Shown here: positions 32,118 through 36,843 of the stretch, one piece after another
Position numbering within the stretch: position 1 is the first letter of the stretch
Layout: the number at the start of each line of letters is the position of its first letter
Assembly (NCBI RefSeq): GCF_009712605.1
Contig: NZ_WASO01000015.1
Coordinates: 186,001-250,000 of the forward strand
Direction: 5' to 3'
Length of the DNA: 64,000 nt
Source of the DNA: Paludibacter sp.
GTDB lineage: Bacteria > Bacteroidota > Bacteroidia > Bacteroidales > Paludibacteraceae
Position numbers and translations under genes: made by a program
The notes under the pieces: model-generated
What the model was told of the DNA's origin: nothing
What the model saw: only the letters and a program-made list of their open reading frames with translations
The model's database searches: none

Positions 32118-34187
32118 ATGAAGATGAGGAGAGTACTGTTTGTTATGTTCTTTGTACACGTGTTGTGTTGCGGTATTGTTCTTGCTCAGGATAAGCCCGA
32201 AAATACAGCCGCGGTTATTGAGCGTATTTATGAGCAGATGACATCTGATGGGGAAACAGACGTGGATTTAACGACTCTGGAAGACGATTTGAATTATTTT
32301 GCCCGCAATCCGATTAATATTAATAATACGAATAAAGAAGAGCTTGGGAGGTTGCAATTCTTGAGTGATAAGCAGATCGAGAATCTTCTTTACTATTTGT
32401 ATCGTCAGAAGCGGATGCAGACGATTTATGAACTTCAGTTGGTCGATGGGTTTGATATGTTTCTGATACGTAATTTGTTGCCGTTTATATATTTGGGTGA
32501 TATGGGAGAGAAAAGGGGTAAACGGCTGTCTTTTTCGAAATTAATGAAAGAAGGGAAGAGTGAGCTTTGTCTGCGAAGTGAGCGGACGCTGGAAAAGAAA
32601 TCTGGTTATGAGAATACGGAGGATAATGCAGAGGCGGAAGCCGCAGGTAAGCGATATCTGGGCGGATCTGAATATTTGTCTTTAAAATATTCGTTTCGGT
32701 ATAAAGATAAAATAGACGTGGGCTTGATTGCGGAAACGGATGCCGGTGAGCAGTTTTGGGGAAATTATCACAAGGGTTTTGATTTTTATTCGGGTTATTT
32801 GCAGCTGGCTAATTTTGGCAAACTGAAAGCGTTGGTTTTAGGAAATTTCAGGGCTAATTTCGGAATGGGATTGGTGATTCATCCGGAGCTTAATTTTGGA
32901 AAGTCGACCGATATTATGAATGTTTTGCCCCGAAATACCGGTTTGCGGAAGAGTTCATCGGTTGATGAATATAATTTTTTGCGGGGAACAGGGGTGACGC
33001 TTCGGTTTGGGAAAGCTGAGGTTTCAGGTTTTTATTCCTATAGGTTCATTGATGGCGATTCTACAGGGAATACATTCTCGAGTTTTAAAACAGATGGTTT
33101 GCATCGAACGCTGAGTGACCTGAATAGTAAGAATACAATCTCTATGCAAGTGTTTGGCGGTAATGTAAATTATCGGTTTTCTAATGCAAATTTGGGAATT
33201 ACGGTGACTGATACGCGGTTGGGTAGAGATCTGGAGCCAGAACTCAAACCATATAATGTGTTTTATTTCAGAGGAAATCATCAATTAGCAGCAGGGGTAA
33301 ATTACCGTTTTAAGTGGAATAAATTCACCTTTTTTGGAGAAGAGGCGACTCAATCGGTGGGGGGTTATGCTCTTCTGAACGGATTTACGGTCAGTCCTGT
33401 ATCGACAGTGAGTTTGGTGGCGCTTTACCGTCTTTATTCAAAACGATATGATGTGTTGTTGTCCAATGCGTTTGCCGAAGGCTCCAAAGTGAACAATGAG
33501 GAGGGATTTTATCTCGGGCTGGAGGTGCATCCCGTTAAACGCTGGAAAATAACGGGGTACATGGATGTTTATTCATTCCCCTGGTTGCGGTACCTGGTGA
33601 GCCGACCGTCAAATGGCTATGATGCTATGCTTGAAGCGGATTTTATGCTTAATAAAAAGGTTGAAATGCTTTGGCGGCTCCGTTATGAGCAAAAAGAGAA
33701 AAATCAAACGGGACCGGAAACTACTGATTTTACGGACGATTATGCAAAAGCATCTTTGCGCTACAAATTGGTGTTTTCTCCAAATGAGCGTTGCGTATTG
33801 AAGAGTACGATTGAGACAAATAGTGCATCGGGTAGGGATCATGAGCTTGCGTTTGGCTTTTTGTTTTCTCAGGAAATGTCCTGCTCTTTCCGAAGATTGC
33901 CTTTGTCGTTTGATGTCAGGTATGAACTCTTTGATGCGGTTAATTACGAAAATCGGATTTACAGCTATGAACGGGACATTCTCTACGCATACTCGGTGCC
34001 AATGCTTTATGGTAGGGGTAGTCGTTGGTATCTGAATTGCCGTTGGCAGGCATTGAAAAATGTGTCACTTTGGTTGAAAGTAGCAGAGACGTTGTATGCG
34101 GATCGATCAGAGGTTGGTGACGGTCTTGAAAAAATAGAAGGGAACCACAAGACAGATGTCAGAGCTCTGGTTCGATTCCGATTTTGA
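32118..34187 (+). CDS. Exported helix-hairpin-helix plus beta-barrel protein
   Basis: 689 residues. Signal peptide about 1-23 (cleavage after VLAQ). Residues about 45-120 form a helix-hairpin-helix-like region (NPININNTNKEELGRLQFLSDKQIENLLYYLYRQ, then ELQLVDGFDMFLIRNLLPFI) of the ComEA/TomB type. The rest is a barrel of strands (GLIAETDAGEQFWG, ALVLGNFRANFGMGLVIHPE) ending in VRALVRFRF. Proteins with this layout occur widely in Bacteroidota but their function is not settled. A DNA- or protein-contact role of the HHH part in the periplasm is only a guess. An alternative ATG is at 32124. Co-transcribed with the 31305 gene. Confidence 0.75.
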   Translation: MKMRRVLFVMFFVHVLCCGIVLAQDKPENTAAVIERIYEQMTSDGETDVDLTTLEDDLNYFARNPININNTNKEELGRLQFLSDKQIENLLYYLYRQKRMQTIYELQLVDGFDMFLIRNLLPFIYLGDMGEKRGKRLSFSKLMKEGKSELCLRSERTLEKKSGYENTEDNAEAEAAGKRYLGGSEYLSLKYSFRYKDKIDVGLIAETDAGEQFWGNYHKGFDFYSGYLQLANFGKLKALVLGNFRANFGMGLVIHPELNFGKSTDIMNVLPRNTGLRKSSSVDEYNFLRGTGVTLRFGKAEVSGFYSYRFIDGDSTGNTFSSFKTDGLHRTLSDLNSKNTISMQVFGGNVNYRFSNANLGITVTDTRLGRDLEPELKPYNVFYFRGNHQLAAGVNYRFKWNKFTFFGEEATQSVGGYALLNGFTVSPVSTVSLVALYRLYSKRYDVLLSNAFAEGSKVNNEEGFYLGLEVHPVKRWKITGYMDVYSFPWLRYLVSRPSNGYDAMLEADFMLNKKVEMLWRLRYEQKEKNQTGPETTDFTDDYAKASLRYKLVFSPNERCVLKSTIETNSASGRDHELAFGFLFSQEMSCSFRRLPLSFDVRYELFDAVNYENRIYSYERDILYAYSVPMLYGRGSRWYLNCRWQALKNVSLWLKVAETLYADRSEVGDGLEKIEGNHKTDVRALVRFRF

Positions 34188-34252
34188 AAGATAAAACAGC
34201 GGAAGGTGTGAAATTTTGATATTTTGAGATAAAAAGCTGTGTTTGACGCCGA

Positions 34253-34268
34253 TATTTTTGTACCTTTG
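34253..34268 (+). promoter_or_regulatory. Promoter of the his leader
   Basis: Two adjacent -7-like boxes, TATTTTTG (34253-34260) and TACCTTTG (34261-34268), precede the leader peptide. TTTG (34242-34245) is a possible but closely spaced -33. Confidence 0.55.
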
Positions 34269-34287
34269 TGCTCTATTTCAGAGTAGA

Positions 34288-34329
34288 ATGAATACGACCC
34301 TCAATTTATTATCGCATCATCATCAATGA
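34288..34329 (+). CDS. hisL: his operon leader peptide
   Basis: A 13-codon frame encodes MNTTLNLLSHHHQ, with three consecutive CAT histidine codons just before the last sense codon and the TGA. It lies between a TAnnTTTG promoter and a Rho-independent terminator, and the next gene is hisG. Runs of His codons in a short leader upstream of hisG are the hallmark of ribosome-mediated attenuation, as in the enterobacterial his operon. The peptide is otherwise unrelated to the enterobacterial one. Translation has not been shown, and there is no strong Shine-Dalgarno. Confidence 0.85.
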   Translation: MNTTLNLLSHHHQ

Positions 34330-34339
34330 GCTGCATCGC

Positions 34340-34405
34340 AACGGTGGGCAAATGGGATGTTGTACCTAATTGACTTGGCTTACCGTTAATCGGTGAGCTT
34401 TTTTT
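34340..34405 (+). promoter_or_regulatory. his attenuator: antiterminator and terminator
   Basis: Terminator: GGCTTACCG (34377-34385) pairs with CGGTGAGCT (34391-34399), nine pairs including two G-U, followed by seven T. Antiterminator: AACGGTGGGC (34340-34349) can pair over ten positions, two G-U, with GCTTACCGTT (34378-34387), which overlaps the left terminator arm. The two structures exclude each other. A ribosome stalled at the His codons (34315-34323) would leave 34340-34349 free to form the antiterminator. Confidence 0.8.
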
Positions 34406-34464
34406 GTAAATGGCAGAATTGAAATAATAAAAAATACATTATAAACCCATTATTACAGACTATT

Positions 34465-35316
34465 ATGTTACGAATAGCAGTTCAATCGAAAGGACGTTTG
34501 TATGAAGATACGATGGAGTTATTCTCCGAAATAGGTATTAAACTCAGTAGTGCAAAACGCACTTTGTTGATTGCCTCGACCAACTTCCCTGTTGAAGTCC
34601 TGTTTTTGAGAGATGACGATATTCCTCAATCGGTAGCCGATGGCGTTGCTGATGTGGGCATAGTGGGCGAAAATGAATTTGTAGAACGAAATGAGAATGC
34701 AATTATTGAAAAACGACTGGGTTTCAGTAAATGCCGTTTGTCATTGGCTATTCCTAAAGAAGAAGATTATAAGGGTGTTAGCTGGTTTGAAGGCAAAAAA
34801 ATAGCTTCTTCTTATCCTCATATTCTGAACACCTTCCTGAAAAAACAAGGTATCAGTGCCCACTGTCACGTTATTACAGGATCTGTTGAGATTGCTCCGG
34901 GTATTGGACTTTCGGATGCTATTTTTGATATTGTTAGCTCCGGTAGTACACTGGTTAGTAACCATCTGAAAGAGGTTGAAGTGGTTATGAAATCGGAAGC
35001 TGTATTGATTGGGAATCCCGAACTTTCTGCCGAAAAAAGAGAAATTCTCAACGAACTGATGTTTCGCATTGATGCAGTGCAGGCGGCCGAGGGCAAAAAA
35101 TACATTTTGCTGAATGCTCCGAATGAAAACATTGAAGATATTATAGCCGTGTTGCCCGGTATTACCAGTCCGACCATTATGCCACTGGCAAAAGAAGGTT
35201 GGAGCTCGATGCACTCGGTATTGCCTGAAAAACGTTTCTGGGAGATTATCGGGAAACTGAAATCACTTGGAGCAGAAGGTATATTGGTATTGCCAATTGA
35301 AAAAATGATTATGTAA
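34465..35316 (+). CDS. hisG: ATP phosphoribosyltransferase (long form)
   Basis: 283 residues, the long HisG form with a C-terminal regulatory domain (about 205-283) that binds histidine. Conserved parts: MLRIAVQSKGRLYEDTMELFSEIG, DIPQSVADGVADVGIVGENE, and GIGLSDAIFDIVSSGSTL (PRPP-binding). It catalyses the first committed step of histidine synthesis. It lies behind the His-codon leader and attenuator, so it should be controlled both by transcription attenuation and by feedback. The downstream hisD is 207 bases away, with an inverted-repeat element between. Confidence 0.97.
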   Translation: MLRIAVQSKGRLYEDTMELFSEIGIKLSSAKRTLLIASTNFPVEVLFLRDDDIPQSVADGVADVGIVGENEFVERNENAIIEKRLGFSKCRLSLAIPKEEDYKGVSWFEGKKIASSYPHILNTFLKKQGISAHCHVITGSVEIAPGIGLSDAIFDIVSSGSTLVSNHLKEVEVVMKSEAVLIGNPELSAEKREILNELMFRIDAVQAAEGKKYILLNAPNENIEDIIAVLPGITSPTIMPLAKEGWSSMHSVLPEKRFWEIIGKLKSLGAEGILVLPIEKMIM

Positions 35317-35329
35317 ATAATATATATTG

Positions 35330-35508
35330 GACACTAATTTCACAAATTCATTGTGTGTTTGATTTGTGTTTTTTTATACGGTTATTGGTGCTGGAGGGAG
35401 AATGGGTTTTGGGGCGGTTAACCGGAAAATGAGCAAACAAACAATCTGCTTGATTTCGTTTTTCTGAGATAAGTAGTTGAATTTATATGTATTCGTGTGA
35501 TTCGTGTC
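35330..35508. repeat. Small inverted-repeat-bounded element between hisG and hisD
   Basis: The ends 35330-35350 and 35488-35508 are imperfect inverted repeats (16 of 21 positions complementary). The right end reads ATTCGTGTGATTCGTGTC. The 179-base unit encodes nothing credible. It resembles short dispersed palindromic elements that I associate from memory with Bacteroidales intergenic DNA. No clear target duplication is visible. Confidence 0.5.
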
Positions 35509-35523
35509 TTTATTTAATTCGTT

Positions 35524-36843
35524 ATGCAAATTATAAAAAAGCCGTCGAGACAGGAGTGGGCAGAACTGCTCAAACGTCCTGAAATAGATACAACGAGCCT
35601 GTTTGGTACGGTGGGCGAAGTTTTGGAAAATATTCGTCAGAACGGCGATAAGGCTGTTTTTGAATATGAACTGAAATTTGATAAGGTTCAGTTATCTGCG
35701 TTGCAGGTAAGTGCAGAGGAAATTGCAGAAGCAGAACCTCTGGTTCCTCATCTGTTGAAAGAGGCTATTTCGCAGGCAAAACGGAATATCGAAAAATTCC
35801 ATGATGCGCAAAACGATGAACTGCCTTACATGAACGTAATTCCCGAAGTGCGTTGCTGGCAAAAACGGGTAGCAATCCAAAAAGTAGGCTTGTATATTCC
35901 GGGCGGAACAGCACCTCTGTTTTCGACAGTATTGATGTTGGCGATTCCGGCTCAGTTGGCTGGTTGTGAGGAAATTGTGCTTTGCTCGCCACCCAATACC
36001 GAAGGTAAAATTCACCCCGCAGTTTTGTATGCAGCCAACTTGTGTGGTGTTACCAAGATATTTAAAATTGGTGGTGCTCAGGCAATTGCTGCTATGGCGT
36101 ATGGAACGGAAAGCGTGCCCAAGGTGTATAAAATATTCGGTCCCGGAAATCAGTATGTTACTGCGGCCAAGCAATTGATAAGTTTGAAGAATACGGCAAT
36201 TGATATGCCTGCCGGACCATCGGAAGTGGCAATTATTGCCGATAATACGGCAAAACCGCGTTATATTGCAGCCGATCTGCTTTCGCAAGCCGAACATGGT
36301 GTTGATAGCCAGTCGATTTTGATTACAACAGATGAGTCGCTTATTGTAGGGGTTCAAGAGGAGGTAAAATCACAACTCGAACTATTGCCCCGTAAAGACT
36401 TGGCTGAAAAAGCGCTGCAACATAGCAAGATTATCTATATTCCCGATATTGAAGAAGCTATCGCGTTCACGAACGAATATGCACCCGAGCACCTGATTAT
36501 CATGACGCACAACTACACGGTAGTAGCCGAGAGGATTATTAATGCAGGCTCGGTATTTTTGGGAGAATACAGTCCCGAAAGCGCTGGCGATTATGCCTCG
36601 GGAACGAATCATACGCTGCCTACCAATGGTTATGCAAAAGCGTACAGTGGGGTGCATCTCGACAGTTTTACCAAAAAAATAACTTATCAGGAATTATCCC
36701 GCGAAGGATTGTCGATGTTGAGCAATGCTATTGAGATAATGGCTGAAAATGAAAGCCTTATTGCTCATAAAAATGCCGTTGAAGTACGCTTGGAAAGAGT
36801 GTATCGCGAAGACGAAGACTATACCGATTCGTGGAGAAGATAA
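35524..36843 (+). CDS. hisD: Histidinol dehydrogenase
   Basis: 439 residues, full length. The family signature is present (RYIAADLLSQAEHGVDSQSILIT with zinc-ligand His), as are the catalytic Glu-His in NEYAPEHLII and the later zinc-site residues in SGTNHTLPTNGYAK and GVHLDSFTKK. It oxidises histidinol to histidine with NAD+. In most Bacteroidales hisC and hisB follow, but here obgE is next, 29 bases downstream. Whether it is still read from the his leader promoter depends on the intervening element. Confidence 0.96.
   Translation: MQIIKKPSRQEWAELLKRPEIDTTSLFGTVGEVLENIRQNGDKAVFEYELKFDKVQLSALQVSAEEIAEAEPLVPHLLKEAISQAKRNIEKFHDAQNDELPYMNVIPEVRCWQKRVAIQKVGLYIPGGTAPLFSTVLMLAIPAQLAGCEEIVLCSPPNTEGKIHPAVLYAANLCGVTKIFKIGGAQAIAAMAYGTESVPKVYKIFGPGNQYVTAAKQLISLKNTAIDMPAGPSEVAIIADNTAKPRYIAADLLSQAEHGVDSQSILITTDESLIVGVQEEVKSQLELLPRKDLAEKALQHSKIIYIPDIEEAIAFTNEYAPEHLIIMTHNYTVVAERIINAGSVFLGEYSPESAGDYASGTNHTLPTNGYAKAYSGVHLDSFTKKITYQELSREGLSMLSNAIEIMAENESLIAHKNAVEVRLERVYREDEDYTDSWRR

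Follow-up and report, generated by a model that had tools for sequence, protein, structure and literature searches.

The window (the whole stretch of 64,000 nucleotides from a Paludibacter sp. that we analysed) contains hisG and hisD, with an Obg gene downstream of hisD. Upstream of hisG we found a promoter, a short leader ORF with consecutive His codons, and four segments that could form alternative RNA helices. All of these features are on the + strand:

34242..34268, + strand: promoter region of the Bacteroidota type, read from the sequence
34253-34260, + strand: promoter box 1, TATTTTTG (TAnnTTTG pattern)
34261-34268, + strand: promoter box 2, TACCTTTG (TAnnTTTG), which abuts box 1
34288..34329, + strand: leader ORF MNTTLNLLSHHHQ, 13 codons, with ATG at 34288 and stop codon TGA at 34327-34329
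34315..34323, + strand: His-codon sensor CAT CAT CAT, read from the sequence
34301..34338, + strand: segment 1; the basal part (34301-34323) overlaps the leader codons and the His run, and the apical part is 34330-34338
34340..34349, + strand: segment 2, AACGGTGGGC, whose pairing partner is segment 1 or segment 3
34352..34373, + strand: 3' strand of the basal 1:2 helix, whose partner is the His-codon region
34377..34387, + strand: segment 3, the 5' arm of the terminator; 34378-34387 pairs with segment 2
34391..34405, + strand: segment 4 and T-run; the 3' arm of the terminator is 34391-34399 and six T are at 34400-34405
34465..35316, + strand: hisG, ATP phosphoribosyltransferase, the putative regulated gene (TIGR00070, TIGR03455)
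35524..36843, + strand: hisD, histidinol dehydrogenase (TIGR00069), possibly co-transcribed with hisG

The upstream promoter element is the TTTG at 34242-34245, and the distance from it to the second box is 19. A promoter scan of the window, which used a sigma-70 consensus, missed these boxes. We also scanned both strands of the window for TAnnTTTG, a short ORF with 3 like residues per 6 (not counting K, N, I, F, or L), and a terminator; the hisG leader was the sole site. CAY-CAY-CAY starts just once on the + strand of the window (at 34315) and nine times on the - strand.

The terminator stem (34377-34385 with 34391-34399) has a TTAAT loop and is followed by T at 34400-34405. Its predicted energy is -13.3 kcal/mol (z = -5.55), and none of 200 shuffled sequences was equally stable. 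The antiterminator pairs 34340-34349 with 34378-34387 (span 34340-34387; -14.0 kcal/mol, z = -2.15, 5/200 shuffles equally stable). Because the antiterminator and the terminator share segment 3, they are mutually exclusive. The promoter, leader ORF, antiterminator, terminator, and hisG all lie where an initial annotation of this DNA had placed them, and its proposal of his attenuator logic (a leader and an exclusive terminator and antiterminator before hisG) is supported.

The initial annotation saw no strong hairpin between segments 1 and 2. In the window, 34301-34338 can pair with 34342-34373 (-15.8 kcal/mol). This energy is not beyond that of shuffled sequences (z = -0.57, 54/200 as stable), and we discarded the single-sequence energy of 1:2 as evidence (z = +0.19 and -0.57). 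When we drew the window and 17 relatives with RNAfold, the window and most of the relatives had one long 1:2 hairpin whose 5' arm holds the His codons; the fold of L004, a close relative, differs. We set aside a candidate H-type pseudoknot (the basal 1:2 helix plus 2:3), as the single long 1:2 hairpin accounts for the pairing.

To compare relatives, which the initial annotation had suggested, we collected the hisG loci of the window and of 80 named genomes (the best 80 of 497). By their record titles, these 80 are mostly Bacteroidales, with one metagenome-assembled genome labelled Roseburia. Most of these loci have a small ORF with a His run at the equivalent position. A scripted search found a His-rich ORF and a terminator within 450 nt in 72/81 loci, and no leader within 450 nt in 8/81 (L013, L019, L022, L032, L033, L036, L068, and L079). 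We then used alignment A1, with 44 non-redundant members, to build a covariance model (R1). R1 matches an element on the hisG strand in 70/81 loci at E ≤ 1e-4 (all had E ≤ 9.2e-5), of which 44 built the model and hence match by construction. Three more loci (L055, L071, and L081) have leaders with weak R1 scores (E of 0.01-0.08). At 47.3 bits, the window is among the lower scores of the family (range 36.7-109.8 bits). Within the window's genome, the hisG site has E = 3.9e-6 and the next best site has E = 0.24. We rejected R1 loci L109 and L113, which have a terminator but lack a leader and appear to be false hits, as well as reverse-strand matches (E of 0.0026 and above), which we read as mirror images of the terminator.

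In all 70 members, TAnnTTTG occurs no more than 70 nt before the leader (shuffles: mean 4.6, maximum 8), and 65/70 have TTG 20-27 nt before this box. These observations bear on another explanation for the terminator, namely that it merely ends the upstream gene (ORF 32118-34187), which stops 190 nt before this intrinsic terminator, and that the His ORF is there by chance. We rejected this reading, to which we give almost no credence, because a promoter box and a leader intervene and accompany hisG in 69 relatives. Also, a His-rich ORF is present in 69/80 hisG regions across the phylum (see below), versus 2.85 expected.

To examine covariation, we used R1 to align the 70 members (alignment A3, 68 distinct rows). 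The R1 structure includes the apical 1:2 helix and the 3:4 helix, and is without 2:3. In A3, the apical 1:2 helix is 92.6% paired with 28 double-change cells, the 2:3 antiterminator is 97.0% paired with 10, and the 3:4 terminator is 98.5% paired with 31. If the partners are slid by 1-3 columns, pairing falls to 19-64%. For each helix, 0/500 shuffles reached the observed percent paired, number of double-change cells, or covariation score; these counts ignore the relatedness of the sequences and are not probabilities. A weaker measure is the number of pairs with a double change, in which 16 of 500 shuffles matched the observed value for 2:3, 47 for apical 1:2, and 14 for 3:4. Further pair types in 2:3 were not above shuffles (117/500 reached the observed value).

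The basal part of 1:2 was examined with an alignment-free swap test. Across 44 members (including two mis-cut rows, L035 and L053, whose last His or segment 2 was mis-set), the mean energy of each member's own duplex was -13.7 kcal/mol, versus -11.9 kcal/mol (sd 0.36) for swapped partners, and 0/20,000 permutations were as low. Restricted to the stretch as far as the first His codon of the run, the test gave means of -8.9 and -8.0 (p = 0.005). With the stretch after the terminator as the pairing partner, there was no signal (p = 0.87). Against shuffled partner strands, the mean z of the basal duplex was -0.94, with 10/44 below -1.5. The swap test and the RNAfold drawings thus indicate that the 1:2 hairpin that had seemed to be missing does exist; it is long, and across the family it has compensatory changes and is backed by a shuffle control. 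Support for segment 1 comes from the RNA fold, covariation in the apical helix, and the own-versus-swapped duplex test. Overall, we found a leader with cognate codons, an intrinsic terminator, an exclusive antiterminator, and a 1:2 protector hairpin that overlaps the codons. In the relatives, the leader and the stems are conserved; the initial annotation had named a lack of such conservation as a ground for refutation.

The spacing of these parts is also conserved. The core of segment 2 lies 16.2 ± 1.3 nt past the last His codon (range 12-20, n = 70). This near-fixed spacing is expected if a stalled ribosome must leave segment 2 free. The distance from the stop codon to segment 2 is 0.3 ± 5.4 nt, with the stop anywhere from 12 nt before the core of segment 2 to 15 nt past its start.

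We simulated switching by taking the RNA up to segment 3, masking the footprint of a ribosome with a 12-nt leading edge, and computing the probability of 2:3 pairing. Across the 70 members, the mean probability was 0.27 for free RNA (median 0.06), 0.96 for a ribosome stalled at the His codons, and 0.05 for one at the stop codon. The stalled value exceeded the free value in 70/70 members and exceeded both other states in 66/70. For the 66 members outside of the window's clade (see below), leading edges of 8-18 nt gave 0.95-1.00 when stalled and 0.00-0.09 at the stop.

Shuffling the RNA 5' of segment 2 brings the free value up to 0.68 (the real value is lower in 65/70 members), which suggests selection on 1:2 pairing. 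Shuffling the loop between segments 2 and 3 gives a free value of 0.37 (the real value is lower in 50/70). The free value is at least 0.5 in 16/70 members (up to 1.00), so untranslated RNA from these members would be expected to antiterminate, and 1:2 is not decisive everywhere. Many of these 16 leaders end in HHHHTCRS.

We conclude that hisG, and probably hisD as well, is very probably controlled by this element as a ribosome-mediated transcription attenuator that senses charged tRNA-His. The leader RNA would begin immediately downstream of the TAnnTTTG box, and its 13-codon peptide would be translated by a ribosome. If charged His-tRNA is short, we infer that the ribosome would stall on the His codons and open the base of the 1:2 hairpin. 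The freed segment 2 could then pair with segment 3, so that the terminator would not form and hisG would be transcribed. If His-tRNA is plentiful, then in most members the ribosome would end on or beside segment 2 and cover it, so 3:4 would form. In the window, the ribosome would probably stop 10 nt short of segment 2 and leave, 1:2 would refold, and 3:4 would form. In either case, formation of 3:4 (in the window's coordinates) should stop transcription near 34405. Without translation, 1:2 would likewise favour termination in most members.

It is highly unlikely that control is instead translational, with structures that mask the start of hisG and incidental termination. The terminator in the window is strong (z = -5.55) and its T-run ends about 60 nt before hisG. 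Among the relatives, the distance from the terminator to the start of hisG varies from 24 to 235 nt, which is unsuited to masking of the start site. On the other hand, our scan found no simple terminator for 20/69 leaders from across the phylum, and some of these bacteria may therefore have a different output.

The window itself is an odd member of the family. It forms a clade with L002, L003, and L004, whose stop codons, like its own, are within one codon of the His run; in all four, the stop codon is 12 nt before the core of segment 2. Because the stop codon comes so early, a terminating ribosome need not cover segment 2 in this clade. With a 12-nt leading edge, the probability of 2:3 with a ribosome at the stop is 1.00 in the window and 0.71, 1.00, and 0.78 in L002, L003, and L004. 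Occlusion in the window would need a leading edge of 16-18 nt (the at-stop probability is 0.51 at 16 nt and 0.00 at 18 nt). The initial annotation had suggested that the default state may rely on ribosome occlusion; this fits 66/70 members of the family, but in the window and its three kin the stop codon lies too far 5' for occlusion unless the leading edge reaches 16-18 nt. According to the simulation, termination in this clade when histidine is in excess would have to proceed by release and refolding, or else regulation would be leaky. Also, the stalled-state probabilities for L002 and L004 are just 0.00 and 0.17.

These features raise the question of whether the attenuator in the window is decaying or only weakly tuned, with partial termination and little response to histidine. 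Besides the misplaced stop codon and the at-stop value of 1.00, the clade has few His codons in a row (just 3 in the window and 2, 1, and 2 in its kin), and no leader was found in 18/29 loci from the window's own family. Nevertheless, we consider decay to be unlikely. The 2:3 and 3:4 helices of the window are intact, and a stalled value of 0.99 versus a free value of 0.43 is still a switch, albeit with a weak default. Furthermore, there are no differences from a same-genus genome across the 166 nt from the promoter to the T-run (34241-34406), while other stretches differ by 5-13%: 48/373 in the upstream gene (12.9%), 6/53 in the 5' gap (11%), 5/58 in the spacer after the terminator (8.6%), and 44/852 in hisG (5.2%). 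Locally low divergence may contribute to this conservation, as the unchanged run (34214-34414) is wider than the element and hisG is likewise unchanged up to 34550. We view the window as a divergent member of the RNA family, and the position of its stop codon makes the release step interesting.

In the window's own family, we examined 29 other hisG loci (29 of 46 matches). Of these, 10 have a leader with 3 or more His per 6 codons, and L119 has an eleventh leader with two His. We found no His-rich leader before hisG in the other 18 loci (L120-L125, L127-L130, L134, L139-L143, L145, and L146; for L125, this covers just 346 nt upstream). In several of the other loci from this family, a promoter box is close to hisG.

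Of the his genes, only hisG and hisD lie downstream of the leader. A terminator scan of the window found no terminator-like site between them. The gap between hisG and hisD (35317-35523) spans 207 nt in the window, as against about 32 nt in L118, from the same genus, which reflects either an insertion in the window or a loss in L118, as judged from these sequences. The other his genes are scattered: hisGD, hisB, a hisF-like gene, and a hisA-like gene are apart on contigs C14, C4, C11, and C9 of the window's genome (the hisF- and hisA-like genes were named by eye). Within about 1.5 kb on each side of hisB and the hisA-like and hisF-like genes in this genome, we found no His-rich leader before them. 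We did see two short ORFs that contain His: one lies about 1.2 kb past hisF, and the other, inside another frame, precedes hisA by about 500 nt.

To examine the distribution of these leaders more broadly, we searched 296 genomes of Bacteroidota. R1 matches 59/296 at E ≤ 0.01, and of the 29 R1 loci that we took besides the window's own, 23 hold hisG. Since hisG is present in 253/296 genomes, we also took 80 of the 253 upstream regions, spread over genera. This sample includes only hits with E ≤ 1e-65, so more distant types of hisG are absent, and most genomes that were already fetched via R1 were left out. An ORF that has 3 or more His per 6 codons is found in 69/80 regions (some, such as L157, L173, L174, L185, and L221, are doubtful), while shuffled sequences gave a mean of 2.85 and at most 7 (20 rounds).

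A simple intrinsic terminator is present in 49 of these 69 leaders, and our scan found none in the other 20. In 44/49 of the leaders with terminators, a segment 2 lies 0-24 nt after the last His; here segment 2 was chosen for the best complementarity, a choice that is biased towards pairing. Switching is in the expected direction in 41 of these 44, and strictly so (probability below 0.5 in the free and stop states, and 0.5 or more in the stalled state) in 26. Many of these leaders have unrelated stems. For instance, many leaders from family f6 (perhaps Flavobacteria) use stems such as CTCAAGCG/CGTTTGAG/TCAAACGG, which are unrelated to those in the window. So, His leaders of the same design appear to be widespread in Bacteroidota; for distant families this is a likeness of design and does not imply homology.

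Several loci from family f24 (L207, L211, L213, L214, L215, L216, and L222) have His-rich leaders, no simple terminator, and C-rich, G-poor spacers. The spacers from the 8 genomes of f24 are 26% C and 8% G, as compared to 17% and 17% for 48 with a terminator. The f24 spacers could be targets for Rho.

We tentatively suggest, as a possibility that falls well short of our confidence in the attenuator itself, that the His-codon leader before hisG is an old, phylum-wide sensor in Bacteroidota whose output module was replaced repeatedly. The outputs would then include unrelated terminator stems, leaders that run through segment 2 or end short of it, and, for instance in f24, candidate Rho-target spacers in place of an intrinsic terminator.

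Our searches also turned up other leader-like elements. On the reverse strand of L104 and L108, near position 1500, R1 finds a leader, MIFNTSIITTIIITTG, and a terminator before a gene that resembles aspartokinase/homoserine dehydrogenase; the leader resembles the thr leader of enterobacteria. Near position 1500 of L106, on the reverse strand, a terminator separates a pair of short Cys-run ORFs, MKNTFTFTCCCCSTRR and then MSHQVTNKTVFHNAACCCCCCALPLERTVC, that precede peroxiredoxin-like and cysteine-synthase-like genes. By its sequence, this pair is a possible tandem cysteine attenuator. In L103 (near position 1500), a leader-like ORF, MKINTEYKRNKRSYLLG, and a terminator precede an aminotransferase-like gene. 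The genes in these four loci were named by eye.

It's useful to compare the element to known systems. Like the enterobacterial His leader (RF00514; hisL of E. coli and Salmonella), it has a leader peptide with His codons before hisG and an alternative antiterminator with an intrinsic terminator. In the enterobacterial leader, a 1:2-type hairpin contains the His codons. Unlike that leader, the window has a Bacteroidota promoter and only hisG and hisD follow; also, unlike in enterobacteria, translation in Bacteroidota is said to initiate without a Shine-Dalgarno sequence. The Bacteroid-trp RNA (RF01692), which is associated with trp genes and has the nature of a leader peptide, is likewise a cis-regulatory RNA of Bacteroidetes, although its model does not match here. 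Neither RF00514 nor RF01692 had a gathering-level match in the 64-kb window or in 20 relatives, and neither had a match at E ≤ 10 within 34200-34480. We therefore rejected a known Rfam family, which fits the initial annotation's statement that the leader and stems are unrelated in sequence to those of enterobacteria.

As for the literature, for which we rely on the portions of each paper that were accessible, his attenuation in enterobacteria is described in PMC9413887, and Bacteroid-trp is listed by Weinberg and colleagues (2010, PMC2864571). The His-leader attenuators of Firmicutes (PMC9413887, PMC2965389) are similar in that a short His-rich leader of lineage-specific sequence precedes a proposed attenuator; they differ in being from another phylum, in partly preceding other genes (hisZ, hisS), and in having been reported from a few lineages. 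Another report is of a structured element 5' of hisG in Flavobacterium psychrophilum, which is stated to occur in other genera of Flavobacteriaceae as well and had no Rfam hit (PMC9723704). It is described in one sentence, with no structure given in that section; for comparison, the stems of f6 are unrelated in sequence to those of the window. The same paper notes attenuation by leader peptides for amino-acid operons of F. psychrophilum. In Bacteroides thetaiotaomicron, short ORFs that resemble leader peptides were reported within long 5' UTRs, with no hisG in the main text (PMC7366714). A 2021 survey of his genes in Bacteroidota names attenuation for enterics alone, in its accessible portion (PMC8305728). 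Within the partial coverage of our literature search (including PMC4833913, PMC7366714, and PMC9723704), we found no description of a his attenuator in Bacteroidales. The leader class may, as the initial annotation suggested, be independently evolved or undescribed, with the F. psychrophilum element as an earlier mention of a hisG 5' element in the phylum.

So, the mechanism is classical, and the RNA family seems to be barely described and to lack an Rfam model. Bacteroidota are a major phylum of the gut, and for their control by histidine there is no Rfam model that fits this locus. The near-fixed distance from the His codons to segment 2 leads to testable predictions about the coupling of translation and transcription in bacteria that are said to initiate without Shine-Dalgarno sequences. 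And the natural variants, in which the stop codon precedes, falls on, or follows segment 2, or in which the terminator is absent, are suited to testing occlusion against release and refolding.
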